Below, piece after piece: positions 42,802-51,272 of a stretch of 64,000 bases of DNA. Source of the DNA: Actinomycetota bacterium (lineage in GTDB: Bacteria > Actinomycetota > Thermoleophilia > Solirubrobacterales > 70-9); NCBI GenBank assembly GCA_018268675.1, contig JAFDWB010000074.1:1-64000 (forward strand), in the 5' to 3' direction. How positions within the stretch are numbered: the first letter of the stretch is position 1; the number at the start of each line of letters is the position of its first letter. The notes below the pieces were generated by a model that saw only the letters and a list, made by a program, of their open reading frames with translations, made no database searches and was not told where the DNA came from. The position numbers and the translations under genes are program-made.

Positions 42802-44967
42802 TCATTCGCCCGCTTCCTTGCCCGCGCCGACGCCCGGCTTGGGCCCGCCGTACTTCGGCGGCAGCGGCGGCGGCAGCGGGGCCGGTTCCTGGCCCACGCC
42901 CGGGGCGTAGGCGTTCGGGTTGTAGCCGCCGACCGCGCCCTGGCCGGGCAGTGGTTCTTCGCCCGCGCCACCGCCGGTCCCACCGCCGCCGTGGCCTTTC
43001 TTCAGCTTCGCCGCCTCGGTCCCCGGCGCGGGCGCGGTGAAGCGCCCGTACCCCGGGCCCCATTCGATCTGTTCCGTCGGTTCGTGGAATTCGTCGCAGC
43101 GGACGCCCGCGTCGGCGTAGAGGGAGTGCCAGATTTCCGCCGGGAAGGTGCCGCCGAAGACGGTGATCCCGTTGACGTCGGTCATCGAGATCGCGTTCGA
43201 TTCCGGATAGCCGACCCAGACCGCGGTGGCGAGGTTCGGCTGGTACCCCGAGAACCAGGCATCGGTGTATTCGTCGGTGGTCCCGGTCTTGCCCGCCTGC
43301 CCGACGCAGCCGGTGTAGGCGGCGGTGCCGGTCCCTTCGGTGATGTTGTCGCGCAGCAGGCGCGTCACCTGCCAGGCGACCGCCGGGCTCAGCACCCGCG
43401 TCGGCTGCGGGCCCTGTGGGTGGTCGACCTTGCCGCCGGGGAAGACGACCTTGGCGATCGCCACCGGCCGGTGGCGCACCCCGCCCGAGGCGAGCGTCGC
43501 GTAGGCGTCGCTCAGTTCGAGCGGGCTGACCCCGTACTTGAGCCCGCCGATCCCTTCCGCCGGCAGCCCCTGCAGGTGCGTGGTGATCCCCATCGACTTC
43601 GCCGTCGCGGCGACGTTCTGCGGCCCGACATCGAGGTCGAGCTGCGCGAACACGGTGTTGTCGGAGGTGACCGTCGCCTGCTTCAGGTTGATCGTCCCCT
43701 GGTACCCCAGGTCGGCGGTGTGGACTTCCCAGTGTCCCCACTGCGGCAGGTTCAGGTTGAGCGGCTTCGATTCGTAGTAGGTGGTGTAGGGGTCGATGCC
43801 CTGCTTGATCGCGGTGGTGAGGACGAAGGCCTTGAAGGTCGAGCCGGGCTGCCGGTGTCCCTGGGCCGCCAGGTTGAACTGGTTCTGCGCGTAGGAGGTG
43901 CTGTTCACCATCGCCCGGATGTCACCGTTGCGGGGGTCGATCGACACCAGCGCCGCGGCCGGGTCGGTCGAGTACGGCAGCGCCGCGCGCATCGCCGCCC
44001 GCCCGACCCGCTGCAGCTCCGGGCTCAGCGTGGTGTGGACCTGGAGCCCGCCGTCCCTCACCTCGGCGGCGCCGTAGTGCTGGATCAGCAGGTGTTCGAC
44101 ATAGTCGAAGAAGTAGGGCTCGCGGTGGGCGAAGTAGCCGCGGCGGGAAGGACTCAGTCCCAGACCCCGCGCTTCGAGCGCCCGCGCCCGCCGCGGCGCC
44201 AGGAAGCCGAGCGACGCCATCTTCTGCAGCACCTCGTCGCGCCGCGCCTTCGCCGCGCGGGGGTTGAGCAGAGGGTTGTATTCGGAGGGCGCCTGGGGGA
44301 GCCCGGCGAGCAGCGCCATCTGGCCGACGTCGAGCTTCCACACCGGCCGCGAGAAGTAGATCTGCGACGCCGCCCCGACCCCCACCGCGGTCGCCCCTTC
44401 GACGGTCCCGTAGGTCGCCGTGTTCAGGTACTGACCGAGGATCTGGTTCTTCGAGTGGTGTTCGGAGTACTCGAGCGCCAGCTTCGCTTCCTCGATCTTC
44501 CGTTCGAGCGTCTTCTGCGGGTGGGCGATGCAGAGGCTGCGGACCAGCTGCTGGGTGATCGTCGAGCCGCCCTCGACCGCTTCGCCCGCTTCCAGGTCGG
44601 TGACCGCGGCGCGCAGGATGCCGAGCGTGTCGAGCCCGCCGTGCTGGTAGAAGCGCTGGTCCTCGATCGCCACCGTCGCCAGCTCGAGCTTGCGCGGCAG
44701 CTTCGCCGCCGGCACCGGTTCGCTCGCTTCCGGCGAGGCGATCGCCCCCAGCCGCTCCCCGTTGGCCGCCCAGATCACCGAGTTGCCGTGCCGCTGCGCG
44801 TGCTCGCAGCTGGCGAGCGAGGGCGCGTCGGCGGCGACGTTCAGCACCCAGCTGGTGACGCCGATCACGGCGACCGCGACCAGCGCGACGACCACCCCGG
44901 CGGCGATCGCCACCTTGCCGCCCAGACTCCCGCGGCGCCGCTGCCGACGCCGACCCCGCTGCGTCAT
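42802..44967 (-). CDS. bifunctional penicillin-binding protein (class A PBP)
   Basis: 721 residues. A basic cytoplasmic start and one membrane helix (VAIAAGVVVALVAVAVIGVT) lead to a GT51 transglycosylase domain: ATVAIEDQRFYQHGGLDTLG, GGSTITQQLVRSL and KNQILGQYLNTATYG. The transpeptidase domain has SxxK in QPGSTFKAFVLTTA, SDN in TVTSDNTVFAQLDLD and KTGT in GQAGKTGTTDEYTDAWFSGY. A Gly/Pro-rich tail ends the protein. It polymerises and crosslinks peptidoglycan outside the membrane and lies upstream of the mannosyltransferase on the same strand. Confidence 0.95.
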   Translation of the reverse strand: MTQRGRRRQRRRGSLGGKVAIAAGVVVALVAVAVIGVTSWVLNVAADAPSLASCEHAQRHGNSVIWAANGERLGAIASPEASEPVPAAKLPRKLELATVAIEDQRFYQHGGLDTLGILRAAVTDLEAGEAVEGGSTITQQLVRSLCIAHPQKTLERKIEEAKLALEYSEHHSKNQILGQYLNTATYGTVEGATAVGVGAASQIYFSRPVWKLDVGQMALLAGLPQAPSEYNPLLNPRAAKARRDEVLQKMASLGFLAPRRARALEARGLGLSPSRRGYFAHREPYFFDYVEHLLIQHYGAAEVRDGGLQVHTTLSPELQRVGRAAMRAALPYSTDPAAALVSIDPRNGDIRAMVNSTSYAQNQFNLAAQGHRQPGSTFKAFVLTTAIKQGIDPYTTYYESKPLNLNLPQWGHWEVHTADLGYQGTINLKQATVTSDNTVFAQLDLDVGPQNVAATAKSMGITTHLQGLPAEGIGGLKYGVSPLELSDAYATLASGGVRHRPVAIAKVVFPGGKVDHPQGPQPTRVLSPAVAWQVTRLLRDNITEGTGTAAYTGCVGQAGKTGTTDEYTDAWFSGYQPNLATAVWVGYPESNAISMTDVNGITVFGGTFPAEIWHSLYADAGVRCDEFHEPTEQIEWGPGYGRFTAPAPGTEAAKLKKGHGGGGTGGGAGEEPLPGQGAVGGYNPNAYAPGVGQEPAPLPPPLPPKYGGPKPGVGAGKEAGE

Positions 44968-44990: not shown

Positions 44991-45416
44991 CTAAGCGGTC
45001 GTGTCGGTCCCCGAATGGTTGTGGACGATCCCCTGGACCAACAGCTGGTTGGGGATGACGAAGCGGCTGCCGTCGCCGGGGTCGATGAAGGTGTAGGAGA
45101 GCGTGATGTCGGAGACGCGGCCCTCGCGTTCTTCGAAGTCGACCCGGTCGCCGATCCTGATCGGCTGGGTGATCGCGATCAGCACCCCGGCGATCACGTT
45201 GGCGATCGTGTTCTGGGCGGCGAAGCCGATGATCAGGCCGAGCACCGCGGTCGAGGCGAAGATCCCCGCCGCGAGCTTGCCCAGCGAGGTGAACTGGGCG
45301 AGCACGATCGCCGCCACCACCAGCACCGCGGCAAGCACCAGCACCCGCCGCAGGATCGTCAGCCGGGTCCTGGTCGAGCGGGATACCTGTGAGACTGCGC
45401 GATCCATGCAGGCCAA
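44991..45416 (-). CDS. MscS-type mechanosensitive channel, short form
   Basis: 141 residues. Two hydrophobic segments (RVLVLAAVLVVAAIVLAQF and GLIIGFAAQNTIANVIAGVL, the pore-lining type helix) precede the beta domain IGDRVDFEEREGRVSDITLS with FVIPNQLLVQGIV. Full MscS is about 280 residues, so the sensor helices and the C-terminal alpha/beta domain are reduced. Starts ATG 45416 and ATG 45407 are possible. The latter overlaps the ATG of the divergent protease gene on the shared CATG at 45405-45408, leaving no separate promoter space. Confidence 0.82.
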   Translation of the reverse strand: MACMDRAVSQVSRSTRTRLTILRRVLVLAAVLVVAAIVLAQFTSLGKLAAGIFASTAVLGLIIGFAAQNTIANVIAGVLIAITQPIRIGDRVDFEEREGRVSDITLSYTFIDPGDGSRFVIPNQLLVQGIVHNHSGTDTTA

Positions 45417-46944
45417 CCTAGTCGGCGGTGAAGTCGCAAAACCGGAGCCGAAGTTCCCCTACGCGAACTGGGGGCCGTGGGCGGCGATCCTGGGCGTCTT
45501 CGCGGCGCTCGCGATCGGCCTCTTCCTCTCCGTCCCGGCCCTGCTCGTGGGCAGCCAGGAAGGCAAGATCGAAGCGCTCTTCCCGCCGGCCTACACGAGC
45601 GGCGCGAGCTTCGACCACGGCGACAGCACGGCGATCGCCGTCGACGACCTCACCAACCGCCTCTTCGCCGACCACGAAGAAGAAGTGCGCGTCTTCGGCG
45701 CTCGCGGCCAGGAAATCGGCGCCGACGCGATCACCGGGATCGAAGAATCGCAGGGCCTCGCGTTCGACCCCCTGCGGCGCACGCTGTTCGTGGCCGAAAA
45801 GGGACCGGGCCGGATCGTCTCCTACGCGATCGGGCGGGAGGAGCCGCGCAAGATCGGCGCGGTGGAAGCGAAGGAACTGCCGCCGAACCTGCGCGGCTTC
45901 GAACCCGAAAGCCTCGCCACCGCGCCCGGCGTCCTCGGCTTCTACGCGATCGACGCCGCCGACGGCGCGGTGCTCGTCTTCGACGGCAAAGGCGAATACC
46001 GACGCCGGCTCGAAGTGCCCGGCTCGACGTCCCCGCGCACCTTCGAATTGGGCTCGGAAGACAACGGGATCGCCGTCGACACCTCCCCCGGGCCGGGGCG
46101 CGGCGACGTGTATGTCCTCTCCGGCAAGGGCGACGGCACGGTCTGGGCCTTCGGGCCGAACGGGCGCTTCCTCTGGGAGCTGACCCCTGAATCGGGGGAC
46201 GAATTCGCCGCCCTCACCGTCGACTCCCGCGGCGTCCTGTGGATCGCCGAACCGGACGGCGACACCTTCGGGTACAAGACATCGGGGGGCGCCGGGGCCG
46301 CGCCGGAACTGACCGGCGCCGAGATCAAGGTCGGCTCTCGGCCGAGCTCGCTCGAGTTCGCCGGCTCCGGCCACCTCTTCGTCGCCCGCGAACTCGACGG
46401 CACGCTCACCACCCTCGGCAGCATCATCTCCCAGGTCGCCACCGAGCTGGGCTTCCTGCTGGTGCCGCTGGCGCTCGCCTCGATGTTCGGCGCCAGGGGC
46501 CGGGAGATGCTCGAGCGGCTCGGCTTCCGCCGCTTCAAGGCATCGGCGTTCGGCTGGATGGCGCTCGCCTTCGTCCTCTACCTCGCCTTCACCGTCTTCT
46601 ACTCGGTGGTGATCACCGAACCGAGGCAGAAGGACATCGCCGAAAGCTTCGGCCCGACCGTCGTCCAGGTCCTCCTGATCGTGATCGCGGCGCCGATCGC
46701 CGAGGAGACGTGCTTCCGCGGCATGCTCTTCGGCGGGCTGCGGGAGAAGCTGCCGCGGCTGGCGGCGGCGCTGGTCACCGGGGTGATCTTCGGCGGCCTG
46801 CACGCGCTGACCGGGGTGAGCGCGGTGCCGCCGCTGATCGTCTTCGGCTTCATCCTGGCGCTGCTCTACGAGCGCACCGGCTCGATCCTGCCGGGCATCT
46901 TGCTGCACATGCTGAACAACTCGATCGCCCTGCTCGGGCAGTAG
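45406..46944 (+). CDS. CPBP/Abi intramembrane protease with inserted beta-propeller
   Basis: 512 residues. The protein starts like a CPBP protease (FPYANWGPWAAILGVFAALA, helix 1, residues ~20-48). Residues ~55-345 are then a repeat-rich beta-propeller of NHL/SMP-30 type: STAIAVDDLTNRLFADHEEE, QGLAFDPLRRTLFVAEKGPG, ESLATAPGVLGFYAIDAADG, NGIAVDTS, AALTVDSRGVLWIAEPDGDT and SSLEFAGSGHLFVARELDGT. The protease continues with ATELGFLLVPLALASMFGAR. Its three motifs are present: EE-x3-R in AEETCFRGMLFG, F-x3-H in FGGLHALTG and H-x3-N in LLHMLNNS. The propeller lies in the first extramembrane loop. Confidence 0.86.
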   Translation: MQANLVGGEVAKPEPKFPYANWGPWAAILGVFAALAIGLFLSVPALLVGSQEGKIEALFPPAYTSGASFDHGDSTAIAVDDLTNRLFADHEEEVRVFGARGQEIGADAITGIEESQGLAFDPLRRTLFVAEKGPGRIVSYAIGREEPRKIGAVEAKELPPNLRGFEPESLATAPGVLGFYAIDAADGAVLVFDGKGEYRRRLEVPGSTSPRTFELGSEDNGIAVDTSPGPGRGDVYVLSGKGDGTVWAFGPNGRFLWELTPESGDEFAALTVDSRGVLWIAEPDGDTFGYKTSGGAGAAPELTGAEIKVGSRPSSLEFAGSGHLFVARELDGTLTTLGSIISQVATELGFLLVPLALASMFGARGREMLERLGFRRFKASAFGWMALAFVLYLAFTVFYSVVITEPRQKDIAESFGPTVVQVLLIVIAAPIAEETCFRGMLFGGLREKLPRLAAALVTGVIFGGLHALTGVSAVPPLIVFGFILALLYERTGSILPGILLHMLNNSIALLGQ

Positions 46945-46954
46945 GATTCCGCCC

Positions 46955-47914
46955 GTGATCCGCCGCCTCGCCCTCACCGTCGGAGCCGCCGCGCTCCTGG
47001 CGGCGCCCACCACCGCCGCGGCCGCCGCGCCGCCGCCCAAGCCCGCGGTGCCGAAGGCGACCGTCACGGTCGAAGTCGGCGGCCTCGAAGGCGGCAAGGC
47101 GACGATCCTCGACACGGTGCCGGTCACCGGGACGCTGAAGCCCTTCGTCCCCGGGCAGCGGGTCGAAGTGACCTTCTACCGCAACGGCCAGGAAGTGGTG
47201 AGCCACAAGATCGCCGTGCAGCCGGGCGCGGAAGAAACCGGGACCTTCGAATCGAGCGTGGTGATGCGGGAAGGCGGCAAGTACGCGGTGTCGGCCAAGC
47301 ACGCGGCGACCGCCACGCTCGGCGCCGACTCCACCGTGCGCAAGAGCTGGACGGTCAGCTTCCCGCAGCTGAACCCGGGCGAATGCAACGAAGTGGTGGG
47401 GGTGTTCAAGTCCCACCTTGCGAAGATGGGGTACGTCAGCGGCGGCGGCAAGTGCTTCACCGCGCGGCTCGGGCGCGAGGTGCTCGCCTACCGCAAAGTC
47501 AACGGCATGGCGCGCACCCAGAAGGCCGGCGCGGGGCTGGTCAGGCTGGCTTTCGAAGGCAAGGGCGGCTACCACGTCAAGTACCCGAACGCGGGCGAAC
47601 ACGCCGAGGTGCCGCTCGCCCTCCAGGTGCTGGTGCTGGTGAAACAGGGCAAGCCGTTCGCGATCTACCCGGTGTCGACCGGCAAGCCCTCGACCCCGAC
47701 GATCACCGGTCACTACCAGTTCTACCGCCAGGAACCGGGCTACAACTCGGAGGGGATGTACTACAGCTTCTACTGGTACAACGGGTACGCCGTCCACGGC
47801 TACGCCGAAGTGCCGAACTACGCCGCGAGCCATGGCTGCGTGCGCACCTTCATCGCCGACCAGCCGCGGATCTACGAACAGCTGCACTTCGGCGAGTCCA
47901 TCTACGTGTTCTGA
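46955..47914 (+). CDS. L,D-transpeptidase (YkuD domain), exported
   Basis: 319 residues. The signal peptide MIRRLALTVGAAALLAAPTT ends near TAAAAA. A beta-sandwich Ig-like domain (~38-135) and a small helical peptidoglycan-binding-like region (~140-190) follow. The YkuD catalytic motif is YAVHGYAEVPNYAASHGCVR with the nucleophilic Cys at ~298. It would form 3-3 crosslinks or attach proteins to peptidoglycan. It starts 10 nt after the CPBP protease, so the two are probably co-transcribed. It complements the class A PBP nearby. Confidence 0.92.
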   Translation: MIRRLALTVGAAALLAAPTTAAAAAPPPKPAVPKATVTVEVGGLEGGKATILDTVPVTGTLKPFVPGQRVEVTFYRNGQEVVSHKIAVQPGAEETGTFESSVVMREGGKYAVSAKHAATATLGADSTVRKSWTVSFPQLNPGECNEVVGVFKSHLAKMGYVSGGGKCFTARLGREVLAYRKVNGMARTQKAGAGLVRLAFEGKGGYHVKYPNAGEHAEVPLALQVLVLVKQGKPFAIYPVSTGKPSTPTITGHYQFYRQEPGYNSEGMYYSFYWYNGYAVHGYAEVPNYAASHGCVRTFIADQPRIYEQLHFGESIYVF

Positions 47915-49203: not shown

Positions 49204-51012
49204 CTACCCGCGCGGCGCGGAGGATTCGAGCGGCAGGCCGGCGCCGCGGCTCCCGCCGGGGATCGCGGCGATGACCTGGGCGCGAAGCTTGCCGCGTTCG
49301 CGCAGGAGTTGGCGCGCGCCGGTGGTCAACGGCACGTAGAAGGTGTGCCACTGGCCGCCGGTGAGGAGGAAGGTCCGCGAGCCGAGCGAGCGGGTGACGG
49401 TGCGGACGAGCGGGCTGCGGTGCCGGCGCGGCGTCGTCACCCTGATGCTGGTGCGCAGGCCGAGGTGCCCGGGGCAGGCGGTGCCGACCGGCCACTGGCA
49501 GGCGAGCGTGACCTTGACCCCGTTGCGCATCGCCTTCAGGCGGGAGAAGGTGACCGCGACCGGGATCGTCGTCGTCTTGCAGCCGAGCAGGCGGTCGCCG
49601 CCGAGCGCCACGTTGAGCGCGTAGACGCAGACCGGCTGGCGACCGGACTTGAGCGTGACGATGTTGGTGTCGAACCCATGCGCCGGGCCGGCGACGATGT
49701 GGGACGCGGCGACGTCGGGGCGGGAGAGGTTCGCGATCGCCCCCAGTTCGTAGGTTTCGACGCCTTCCTGGCCTTCGCGGCCGCCGACGAGGACCTTGAT
49801 CGAGAGCGCTTCGGTGGGCGCGCTCGGGTCGAGGGCCCAGCCTTTGACCCGCACCTGCCCGGCCGCCGGCGACCCGGTCAGTTCGAGCGAGCCGATCGGG
49901 TCGTCGACGCCGACCGCGGGCGTGCCGTTGCCGACCGTCGCCCCGTCGATGTAATTGCTGTCGATGTTGATCGTGGCGCCGCCCCAGGTCTCGTTGTGGC
50001 CGCCGCGGAACTGGTGGATCCGCTGGTGGTTGGCCCAGGCGCCGGCGGGCACGACGGCGTCTTCGGTGTTTTCGAGGTTGTTCCAGTTGGCGATCCAGAT
50101 GTCGTCGGGGAGGACGGCGCCGGTGCCGATCTGGGCGGCGAGGTCGGCGATCCCGGAGCCGCTGGAGGAATAGACGCCCGACTGGTAGCCGAGCTGGTGG
50201 AGCTTTTCCGTCCAGGCGGCGAGGAAGGTGAGCACGGCCTTGGTCGCGCTGGTGGTCCGCGTGTAGGACTCCATGTCGAAGTAGATCGGGCTGCCCGGCC
50301 CGATCCCGATCGCGGCGGCGTGGCTGACCGCGTCTTCGGCCGCCGCCGTCCCTTGGGTCGCCGCGGTCAGCGTGGACATCTTGGCGCAGCTGCTGCAGCT
50401 CGAGGTGGTCGCCTGGAGGCCGACGTAGGTTGGGATCAGGTGCCAGCCCGCGGCGGTCTCGGCGCTCACCCAGGCGGCGGTGAGGTTGGGTTGGGAGCAG
50501 GCGCTGTTTTCGCCGCCGATGTAGATGCCGACGCCGCGGAAGGGCGATTCGGCCCAGGCCGCCAGCGCCTTGGTGGAGGGGGCGCTGCAGGTGTCGAAGC
50601 CGAGGCCGGTGAAGACGGAGCCCGCGGCCGAGCCGGTGGCGGGCGCGACACTGGCGCGGGCGGTGGCCCGGCGCTGGACGCGCGACCGGGCGGCGGCGCG
50701 CTGGTGGTGGGGGGTGACGACGATCGCCTGGCGCCTGCCGAGGAGCGGGCCGGCCGGGCACCGCTGTTCCTTCGAGGGGGCGCCGAGGTAGACGACGCGG
50801 CGGTCGAGCCGCACGCAGGTGTGCGAGCCCGGCGCCACCCGGACGACCCCGAACCCGGCCGGGACATGCACGGCGCGCCCGGCGAAGTGAACGGTGCGGG
50901 CGCCGGTCCCGGCGGCCGAGGCCGACCCGACCGCCGCGGCGAGCGCTACGAGCAGCACGAGGCCGCCGAACAGAAGCCGGGCGGGAAGGCGCTTGCCGGG
51001 TCCGGAGGTCAC
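49204..51012 (-). CDS. secreted DUF1906 (glycoside-hydrolase-like) protein
   Basis: 602 residues from GTG 51012. The signal peptide is LLFGGLVLLVALAAAVGSAS. A basic Ala-rich linker leads to the DUF1906 TIM-barrel-like domain (~145-370). Landmarks are GLGFDTCSAPSTKALAAW, GVGIYIGGENSACS, HLIPTYVGLQA, SPIYFDMESYTR with acidic residues of the putative active site, and LGYQSGVYSSSGSGI. The C-terminal ~230 residues form beta-rich domains. Relatives such as Rv2525c are thought to act on cell-wall glycans. Frames before 51012 run into the repeat region and lack a signal peptide, so are rejected. Confidence 0.85.
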   Translation of the reverse strand: MTSGPGKRLPARLLFGGLVLLVALAAAVGSASAAGTGARTVHFAGRAVHVPAGFGVVRVAPGSHTCVRLDRRVVYLGAPSKEQRCPAGPLLGRRQAIVVTPHHQRAAARSRVQRRATARASVAPATGSAAGSVFTGLGFDTCSAPSTKALAAWAESPFRGVGIYIGGENSACSQPNLTAAWVSAETAAGWHLIPTYVGLQATTSSCSSCAKMSTLTAATQGTAAAEDAVSHAAAIGIGPGSPIYFDMESYTRTTSATKAVLTFLAAWTEKLHQLGYQSGVYSSSGSGIADLAAQIGTGAVLPDDIWIANWNNLENTEDAVVPAGAWANHQRIHQFRGGHNETWGGATINIDSNYIDGATVGNGTPAVGVDDPIGSLELTGSPAAGQVRVKGWALDPSAPTEALSIKVLVGGREGQEGVETYELGAIANLSRPDVAASHIVAGPAHGFDTNIVTLKSGRQPVCVYALNVALGGDRLLGCKTTTIPVAVTFSRLKAMRNGVKVTLACQWPVGTACPGHLGLRTSIRVTTPRRHRSPLVRTVTRSLGSRTFLLTGGQWHTFYVPLTTGARQLLRERGKLRAQVIAAIPGGSRGAGLPLESSAPRG

Positions 51013-51104
51013 AGGCCTCAGGGGATTAAACGGGTCGGAGGCCCAGAAGTTGCTGCGTTGCCATGACCGGCAAGCGTGCTTGCCGCCTTCCGGAGGCGCC
51101 CGAG

Positions 51105-51272
51105 GGAGTCCCGCCACAGAGATGCCAAGGGACGGTGCGCGTCCCGCCGACACCTGCGCGCACCCCGTGCGCCTTCCTGGGTCCGGGAGGTTGATGGGCC
51201 GAAAACCTGCCCTATAGGAGGTGTTTTCGGCCCATCAACATTTAGGGGCCCACGGGAGTGTGTCGGGACTCC
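51105..51272. repeat. inverted-repeat-bounded spacer between DUF1906 and DyP genes
   Basis: GGAGTCCCGCCACA (51105-51118) and TGTGTCGGGACTCC (51259-51272) are inverted copies with one mismatch, enclosing about 140 bp. The 50-bp palindrome lies inside. No gene is visible in 51013-51303. GGCAAGCGTGCTTGCC at about 51069-51084 is a further short hairpin. It may be the footprint of a small mobile element. Confidence 0.5.
51190..51239. repeat. 50-bp dispersed palindrome, intergenic copy
   Basis: Arms GTTGATGGGCCGAAAAC (51190-51206) and GTTTTCGGCCCATCAAC (51223-51239) are identical to those of the copy at 42034-42082. The 16-nt centre includes CTATAGG, where the other copy has GTATAGG, and ATTT follows in both. 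The two copies therefore share one ancestor, with changes confined to the loop. Confidence 0.9.

Follow-up and report, generated by a model that had tools for sequence, protein, structure and literature searches.

A single gene of the window, the stretch of 64,000 nucleotides analysed here, encodes a CPBP-family (Rce1-like) glutamic intramembrane protease in which a domain predicted to fold as a six-bladed NHL-type beta-propeller lies between the first and second membrane helices (TM1 and TM2). Both component families are already known, and what appears to be new, as judged from the sequences, is the occurrence of an NHL-type propeller inside a CPBP protease. The explanation that we put forward, plausible though still tentative, is that the propeller replaced the outer TM1-TM2 loop of the protease once, binds an extracytoplasmic ligand and would gate the protease through TM2.

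The protease gene and its catalytic core

The gene (45406-46944, + strand) is one open reading frame from ATG to stop, with no internal stops and a product of 512 residues, where an N-terminal membrane helix is followed by an insert of about 277 residues and then by the CPBP (Rce1-like) core. The first membrane helix was located at residues 24-49 (45475-45552, +) from an AF2 model of low confidence and from the charge pattern, this segment being free of charges in 12 of 13 orthologs and holding a single K/R in the other one (G019). The insert, which is missing from the insertless orthologs, takes up residues 52-328 (45559-46389, +), and TM2 was placed at residues 332-359 (46399-46482, +), again from an AF2 model with low confidence for the helix. 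Residues 418-506 (46657-46923, +) match the Pfam family PF02517 with an E value of 6.7e-23 and 81.2 bits against a gathering cut-off of 22.4. The EExxxR motif is found as EETCFR (residues 433-438; 46702-46719, +), FxxxH as FGGLH with the catalytic-type H466 (residues 462-466; 46789-46803, +) and HxxxN as HMLNN (residues 501-505; 46906-46920, +), and the residues E433, E434, R438, H466, H501 and N505 are invariant in the 13 aligned orthologs, five with the insert and eight without it. The profile match and the motifs bear out the CPBP/Abi core proposed in the initial annotation and indicate that the product is a CPBP-family glutamic intramembrane protease.

The full-length AF2 model has a mean pLDDT of 56.3, with most of the core below 50 and a poor membrane part; it shows seven helices at the expected places, at low pLDDT and with a compatible charge pattern. 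In this model the protein would resemble MrtX, described with about seven membrane helices, the fourth bearing EExxxR and the seventh HxxxN (PMC11980579). A core over the Pfam cut-off and the three motifs are likewise what it shares with the CPBP/Rce1-like proteases in general (PF02517; MmRce1, MrtX), from which it differs by the 277 extra residues between TM1 and TM2 that are predicted to form the propeller. The 13 NCBIfam models listed for the protein, CPBP equivalogs such as ABC_perm_CPBP, MrtS, MrtJ and MroQ, all stayed under their curated cut-offs. The best of these for the core was the ABC permease / CPBP fusion NF041647 (79.6 bits against a cut-off of 435), where a CPBP domain is also joined to a second domain, but the partner is a permease and not a propeller. 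No PDB sequence was matched by the core alone at E 10, no kinase domain of Pfam or NCBIfam was matched by the protein, and no PADLOC family of anti-phage defence was detected at E 0.1. This is the sole PF02517 protein of the window genome; one is found in 11 of the 12 genomes of the genus and two in the remaining one (G005).

A predicted propeller, probably on the outer face of the membrane

An AF2 model of the insert, built with four sequences, reached a pLDDT of 78.3 and a pTM of 0.82 and contains 21 strands, which we sorted into six blades, the last one having two or three strands and ending at residue 330. The propeller was recovered in the full-length model too, with block means mostly of 60-84 for residues 71-300. 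When a profile of six insert sequences was compared with the PDB, the designed Pizza6 propellers (E 7e-20) and the extracellular domain of PknD (1rwi, E 5e-10) were matched, and the structures of DFPase appeared from E 0.0055. Structural comparison of the insert model by VIA-align gave the NHL domains of TRIM71, Lin41 and Brat with Z scores of 25-27, and the PknD domain (1rwi_A) with a Z of 23.1 and an rmsd of 2.8 over 231 residues at 20% identity; Foldseek was consistent with these results. Among the Pfam propeller families, none exceeded its cut-off for the insert of the window: the NHL repeat (PF01436) gave no match in the window protein and a best E of 0.0026 among six members, and the SMP-30/gluconolactonase family (PF08450, SGL) came up in one of the six at E 0.032, also short of the cut-off. 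The insert is therefore best described as NHL-like, predicted to be a six-bladed NHL-type propeller and left unassigned to PF01436. The initial annotation had described about 290 residues of NHL/SMP-30-like blades; structure prediction did return a propeller (pTM 0.82), somewhat smaller than first thought at about 277 residues (52-328), and its NHL character, of the PknD kind, stands. The SMP-30 part does not: the PF08450 match (E 0.032 in one of six members) and those to DFPase (from E 0.0055) are weak, and we rejected an SMP-30 enzyme identity for the insert.

A propeller on the outer face had also been suggested, and the charges of the membrane loops agree with it. In the 13 orthologs (five with the insert and eight without), K/R outnumber D/E in the TM2-TM3 loop (4-7 against 0-2) and in the TM4-TM5 loop (3-4 against 0-1), while the TM3-TM4 loop has 0-2 K/R against 2-5 D/E, so that the net charge is positive for the first two and negative for the third in all 13; the N-terminal tail is neutral and uninformative on this point. 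Read by the positive-inside rule, these charges place the TM1-TM2 loop, and hence the propeller, most probably outside the cytoplasmic membrane, in agreement with the related NHL proteins described below, which look secreted. Such an arrangement would recall PknD of Mycobacterium tuberculosis, a membrane Ser/Thr kinase that carries a six-bladed NHL-type propeller on its outer side. This kinase has been described, under the name Mbk, as probably a receptor, its NHL repeats being extracellular (PMC1262709). The two differ in the effector, an intramembrane protease instead of a kinase, and in the position of the propeller, which lies within the chain in the window protein and at the chain end in PknD.

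The insert is constrained, yet in the closest pairs it changes more quickly than the core does. Among the five complete carriers, Nei-Gojobori dN/dS was 0.55-0.81 for the insert, 0.16-0.65 for the TM1 part and 0.27-1.07 for the core, the higher core values all involving G008 and resting on low dS in strongly GC-biased codons; among G000 (the window genome), G003, G006 and G007 the core stays at 0.27-0.33. This faster change of the insert gives no pointer to a tightly fixed ligand site. Neither did we find a conserved face on the propeller, with 14 of 61 positions invariant in the top loops against 12 of 58 in the bottom loops (p 0.83), and the idea of a conserved binding face was rejected.

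Distribution, gain and origin of the insert

The protease gene occurs in all 12 genomes of the genus, at the same chromosomal place with or without the insert. Six of them carry it (G000, G003, G006, G007, G008 and G011), and in the other six (G001, G002, G004, G005, G009 and G010) the protein has 235-237 residues, with about eight between TM1 and TM2. The G011 copy is broken by an N-run in its assembly, which leaves five complete carriers, and was placed in the core tree by a 140-residue tail. In this tree the six carriers make up one side of a single branch (support 99/98; 98% of 200 bootstrap trees), and a FastTree phylogeny of six neighbour genes gave the same split between carriers and insertless genomes (support 1.000). 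Because the carriers form one clade in both trees, a single gain of the propeller in the ancestor of one subclade of the genus accounts for the pattern, as far as the phylogenies indicate. As a side observation, the genomes of the six carriers (3.8-4.7 Mb) are larger than those of the six insertless species (2.4-3.4 Mb).

The window comes from an assembly of 95 contigs, where an assembly chimera or misjoined genes might have produced such a protein. Five other genomes, however, have the same architecture at the same locus, with 62-78% identity to the window protein and 55-70% between their inserts and that of the window protein, and three of the carriers were found again as public MAG contigs (L031-L033). 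The assembly artefact considered in the initial annotation was thus rejected, and we give it next to no probability.

Across the class, a search with a full-length profile matched 149 of 399 genomes. Among the matches listed, four span the whole model (G000, G006, G007 and G008; G003 and G011 do not figure there) and those outside the carriers cover the core alone. We examined 20 other CPBP loci, nearly all of them long-open-frame matches, of which 18 were readable and two had no motif match. By a hydropathy scan, about 12-24 residues separate TM1 from TM2 in 16 of the readable loci, and in the other two TM2 fell under the hydropathy threshold and the loop was short by eye, so no large TM1-TM2 insert was found among the 18 readable loci of the class. 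Three other genomes of the family (L020, L021 and L026) have the same CPBP core behind an RDD-like membrane domain, judged by eye, in one open frame. Among plasmid records, 50 gave a match and none covered 80% of the query. The literature, searched through titles and abstracts with subscription journals mostly outside, yielded no paper describing a CPBP protease with a propeller insert, which within that range is in keeping with the earlier remark that no such family had been described.

With regard to the origin of the insert, a profile search of 232 genomes of the order found the full insert in the six carriers alone and partial matches in 17 more genomes, and in a phylum sample the single genome matched at 1e-10, out of 396, was that of the window. 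The partial-match proteins that were read are NHL-like, one of them (L052) with a Pfam NHL match at E 1.7e-10 and several with signal-peptide-like N-termini as judged by eye; BLASTP of the insert against these loci gave 26-42% identity over 70-150 residues, and the NHL match of the window genome itself (G000:C74) is a separate open frame of 459 residues. As the sequences closest to the insert, the carriers aside, belong to NHL proteins of the same order, a secreted NHL protein of this order would be the likeliest type of donor; no actual donor sequence was found. Some of these NHL-like proteins (L052, L053, L041 and L056) are large, with fn3-like repeats and signal-peptide-like starts. Recent foreign DNA was rejected as a source, the GC content of the insert (0.67-0.72) and its GC3 (0.87-0.92) differing little from the remainder of the gene, with GC3 slightly under the core.

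A cell-wall neighbourhood older than the propeller

Upstream of the protease, and divergent from it, there are a short MscS-type channel gene (44991-45407, - strand) and a class A penicillin-binding protein (PBP; 42802-44967, -), whereas the next gene downstream, starting 10 nt past the protease stop as noted initially, is an L,D-transpeptidase of the YkuD type (46955-47914, +). The PBP is divergently upstream in all 20 related loci examined, the L,D-transpeptidase is matched downstream in 16 (it is absent in the four from genus g11) and MscS is matched in 15. All 12 genomes of the genus, that of the window included, have the L,D-transpeptidase behind the protease, regardless of the insert. 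This gene had been taken as a hint of cell-wall sensing, but it says nothing particular about the insert: because carriers and insertless genomes have the same gene order, the cell-wall setting is, by this comparison, a property of the protease family here that predates the propeller.

The ATGs of the MscS-type gene and the protease overlap in one CATG. In this start region (45386-45408), nine nt upstream of the protease ATG, there is a CCTGTGAGACT element that may act as a near-leaderless promoter. It is exact in 11 of 13 orthologs, with one substitution in G004 and two extra bases in G007, where MscS can no longer be read from the reverse strand. Further downstream, 49204-51153 encodes a Rv2525c-like glycoside-hydrolase-like protein (PF08924, E 5.2e-50), likely another envelope protein, that is present downstream in most of the genus loci examined. 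The L,D-transpeptidase and pyrE, just 43 nt apart in the window, are separated by one more gene in three insertless loci (L079 9370-10293, L077 5733-6677 and L088 5321-6265). By eye this gene resembles a NAD-dependent epimerase and not a propeller, on account of which we rejected the possibility of a free propeller gene of insertless genomes that was later fused.

A putative receptor protease and its alternatives

The most likely mechanism would start with the binding of an extracytoplasmic ligand by the propeller, be it a cell-wall fragment, an envelope protein or a peptide. In the AF2 models the last propeller strand (residues 324-330) runs into TM2 (from residue 332, low confidence for the helix) with almost no linker, and for this reason the binding state could be handed from the propeller to TM2; about 25 low-confidence residues lie on the N-terminal side of the propeller. 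Given the low confidence of the membrane part in the full-length model, this coupling is suggested by secondary structure alone. MmRce1 has an entrance between TM2 and TM4 that the substrate closes off with its farnesyl group (PMC12067869), and the myxosortase model has a lipid at the same place (PMC11980579). As these two helices frame the membrane entrance in MmRce1 and in the modelled myxosortase, a ligand could open or close the way of the substrate to the active site, with the propeller pulling on TM2. The MmRce1 cavity opens to the cytosol (PMC7248309), so that an external propeller could influence a protease of this type only from across the membrane. Myxosortase cleaves a tag composed of a motif, a membrane helix and then a cytoplasmic tail (PMC11980579). 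By analogy, the protein would work as PknD does, with a protease substituted for the kinase. With a class A PBP on one side of the gene and an L,D-transpeptidase on the other, the protein probably serves the maintenance of the envelope or of peptidoglycan. Taken in full, we would have a one-protein receptor protease, whose outside NHL propeller is mechanically joined to the gate helix TM2 so that a ligand switches proteolysis across the membrane, and which arose by one domain insertion while the plain form survived in sister species at the same locus; this complete picture is a tentative one, to be held with some doubt.

Propellers mostly bind proteins and peptides, and the domain could instead be a docking platform that holds a substrate or partner by the protease, such as a lipoprotein, the L,D-transpeptidase or the PBP, with cleavage itself unregulated. 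The conserved L,D-transpeptidase and PBP neighbours would suit this possibility, as would the fast evolution of the insert if it co-evolves with a changing partner. However, the same neighbours stay in place without the insert, and a propeller that is held by its two ends within the TM1-TM2 loop, and has a near-zero linker to TM2, exceeds what a docking arm needs, so that we regard simple docking as possible but rather unlikely. The protein might also do without proteolysis and regulate a kinase or an enzyme of the cell wall from the membrane, with the propeller as a sensor or contact surface. The precedents are SpdC and Abx1, CPBP/Abi membrane proteins linked to envelope regulation: for SpdC, which contains an Abi domain, binding to histidine kinases and effects on cell-wall phenotypes have been described, and the excerpts of that work on these regulators have them acting through kinase contacts and make no mention of a propeller (PMC5854430). 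The gene considered here does adjoin cell-wall genes, but its catalytic residues are invariant in all 13 orthologs, insert or not, which makes a purely regulatory role improbable. Still less probable in our opinion is a fused enzyme of the lactonase/SMP-30 type, or a tolerated passenger unconnected to the protease; the weak DFPase and SGL matches and an insert dN/dS above that of the core in the closest pairs could be adduced for it, but NHL binding propellers match better, and the insert has stayed open, in frame and stop-free in the five complete carriers, with 55-70% identity of the other five inserts to that of the window.

Coming back to a propeller that gates the protease through TM2, its interest lies in that the regulation of prokaryotic CPBP proteases, and the role of most of them, is a largely open field, these members having been called 'largely unexplored' (PMC11980579). 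The genus offers a natural before/after pair, where the sole CPBP protein of the genome has a propeller in one clade and lacks it in sister species with the same gene order, and this pair bears on the possible control of intramembrane glutamic proteases by an outside domain. If true, it would represent an unusual route for an outside signal to control a membrane protease.
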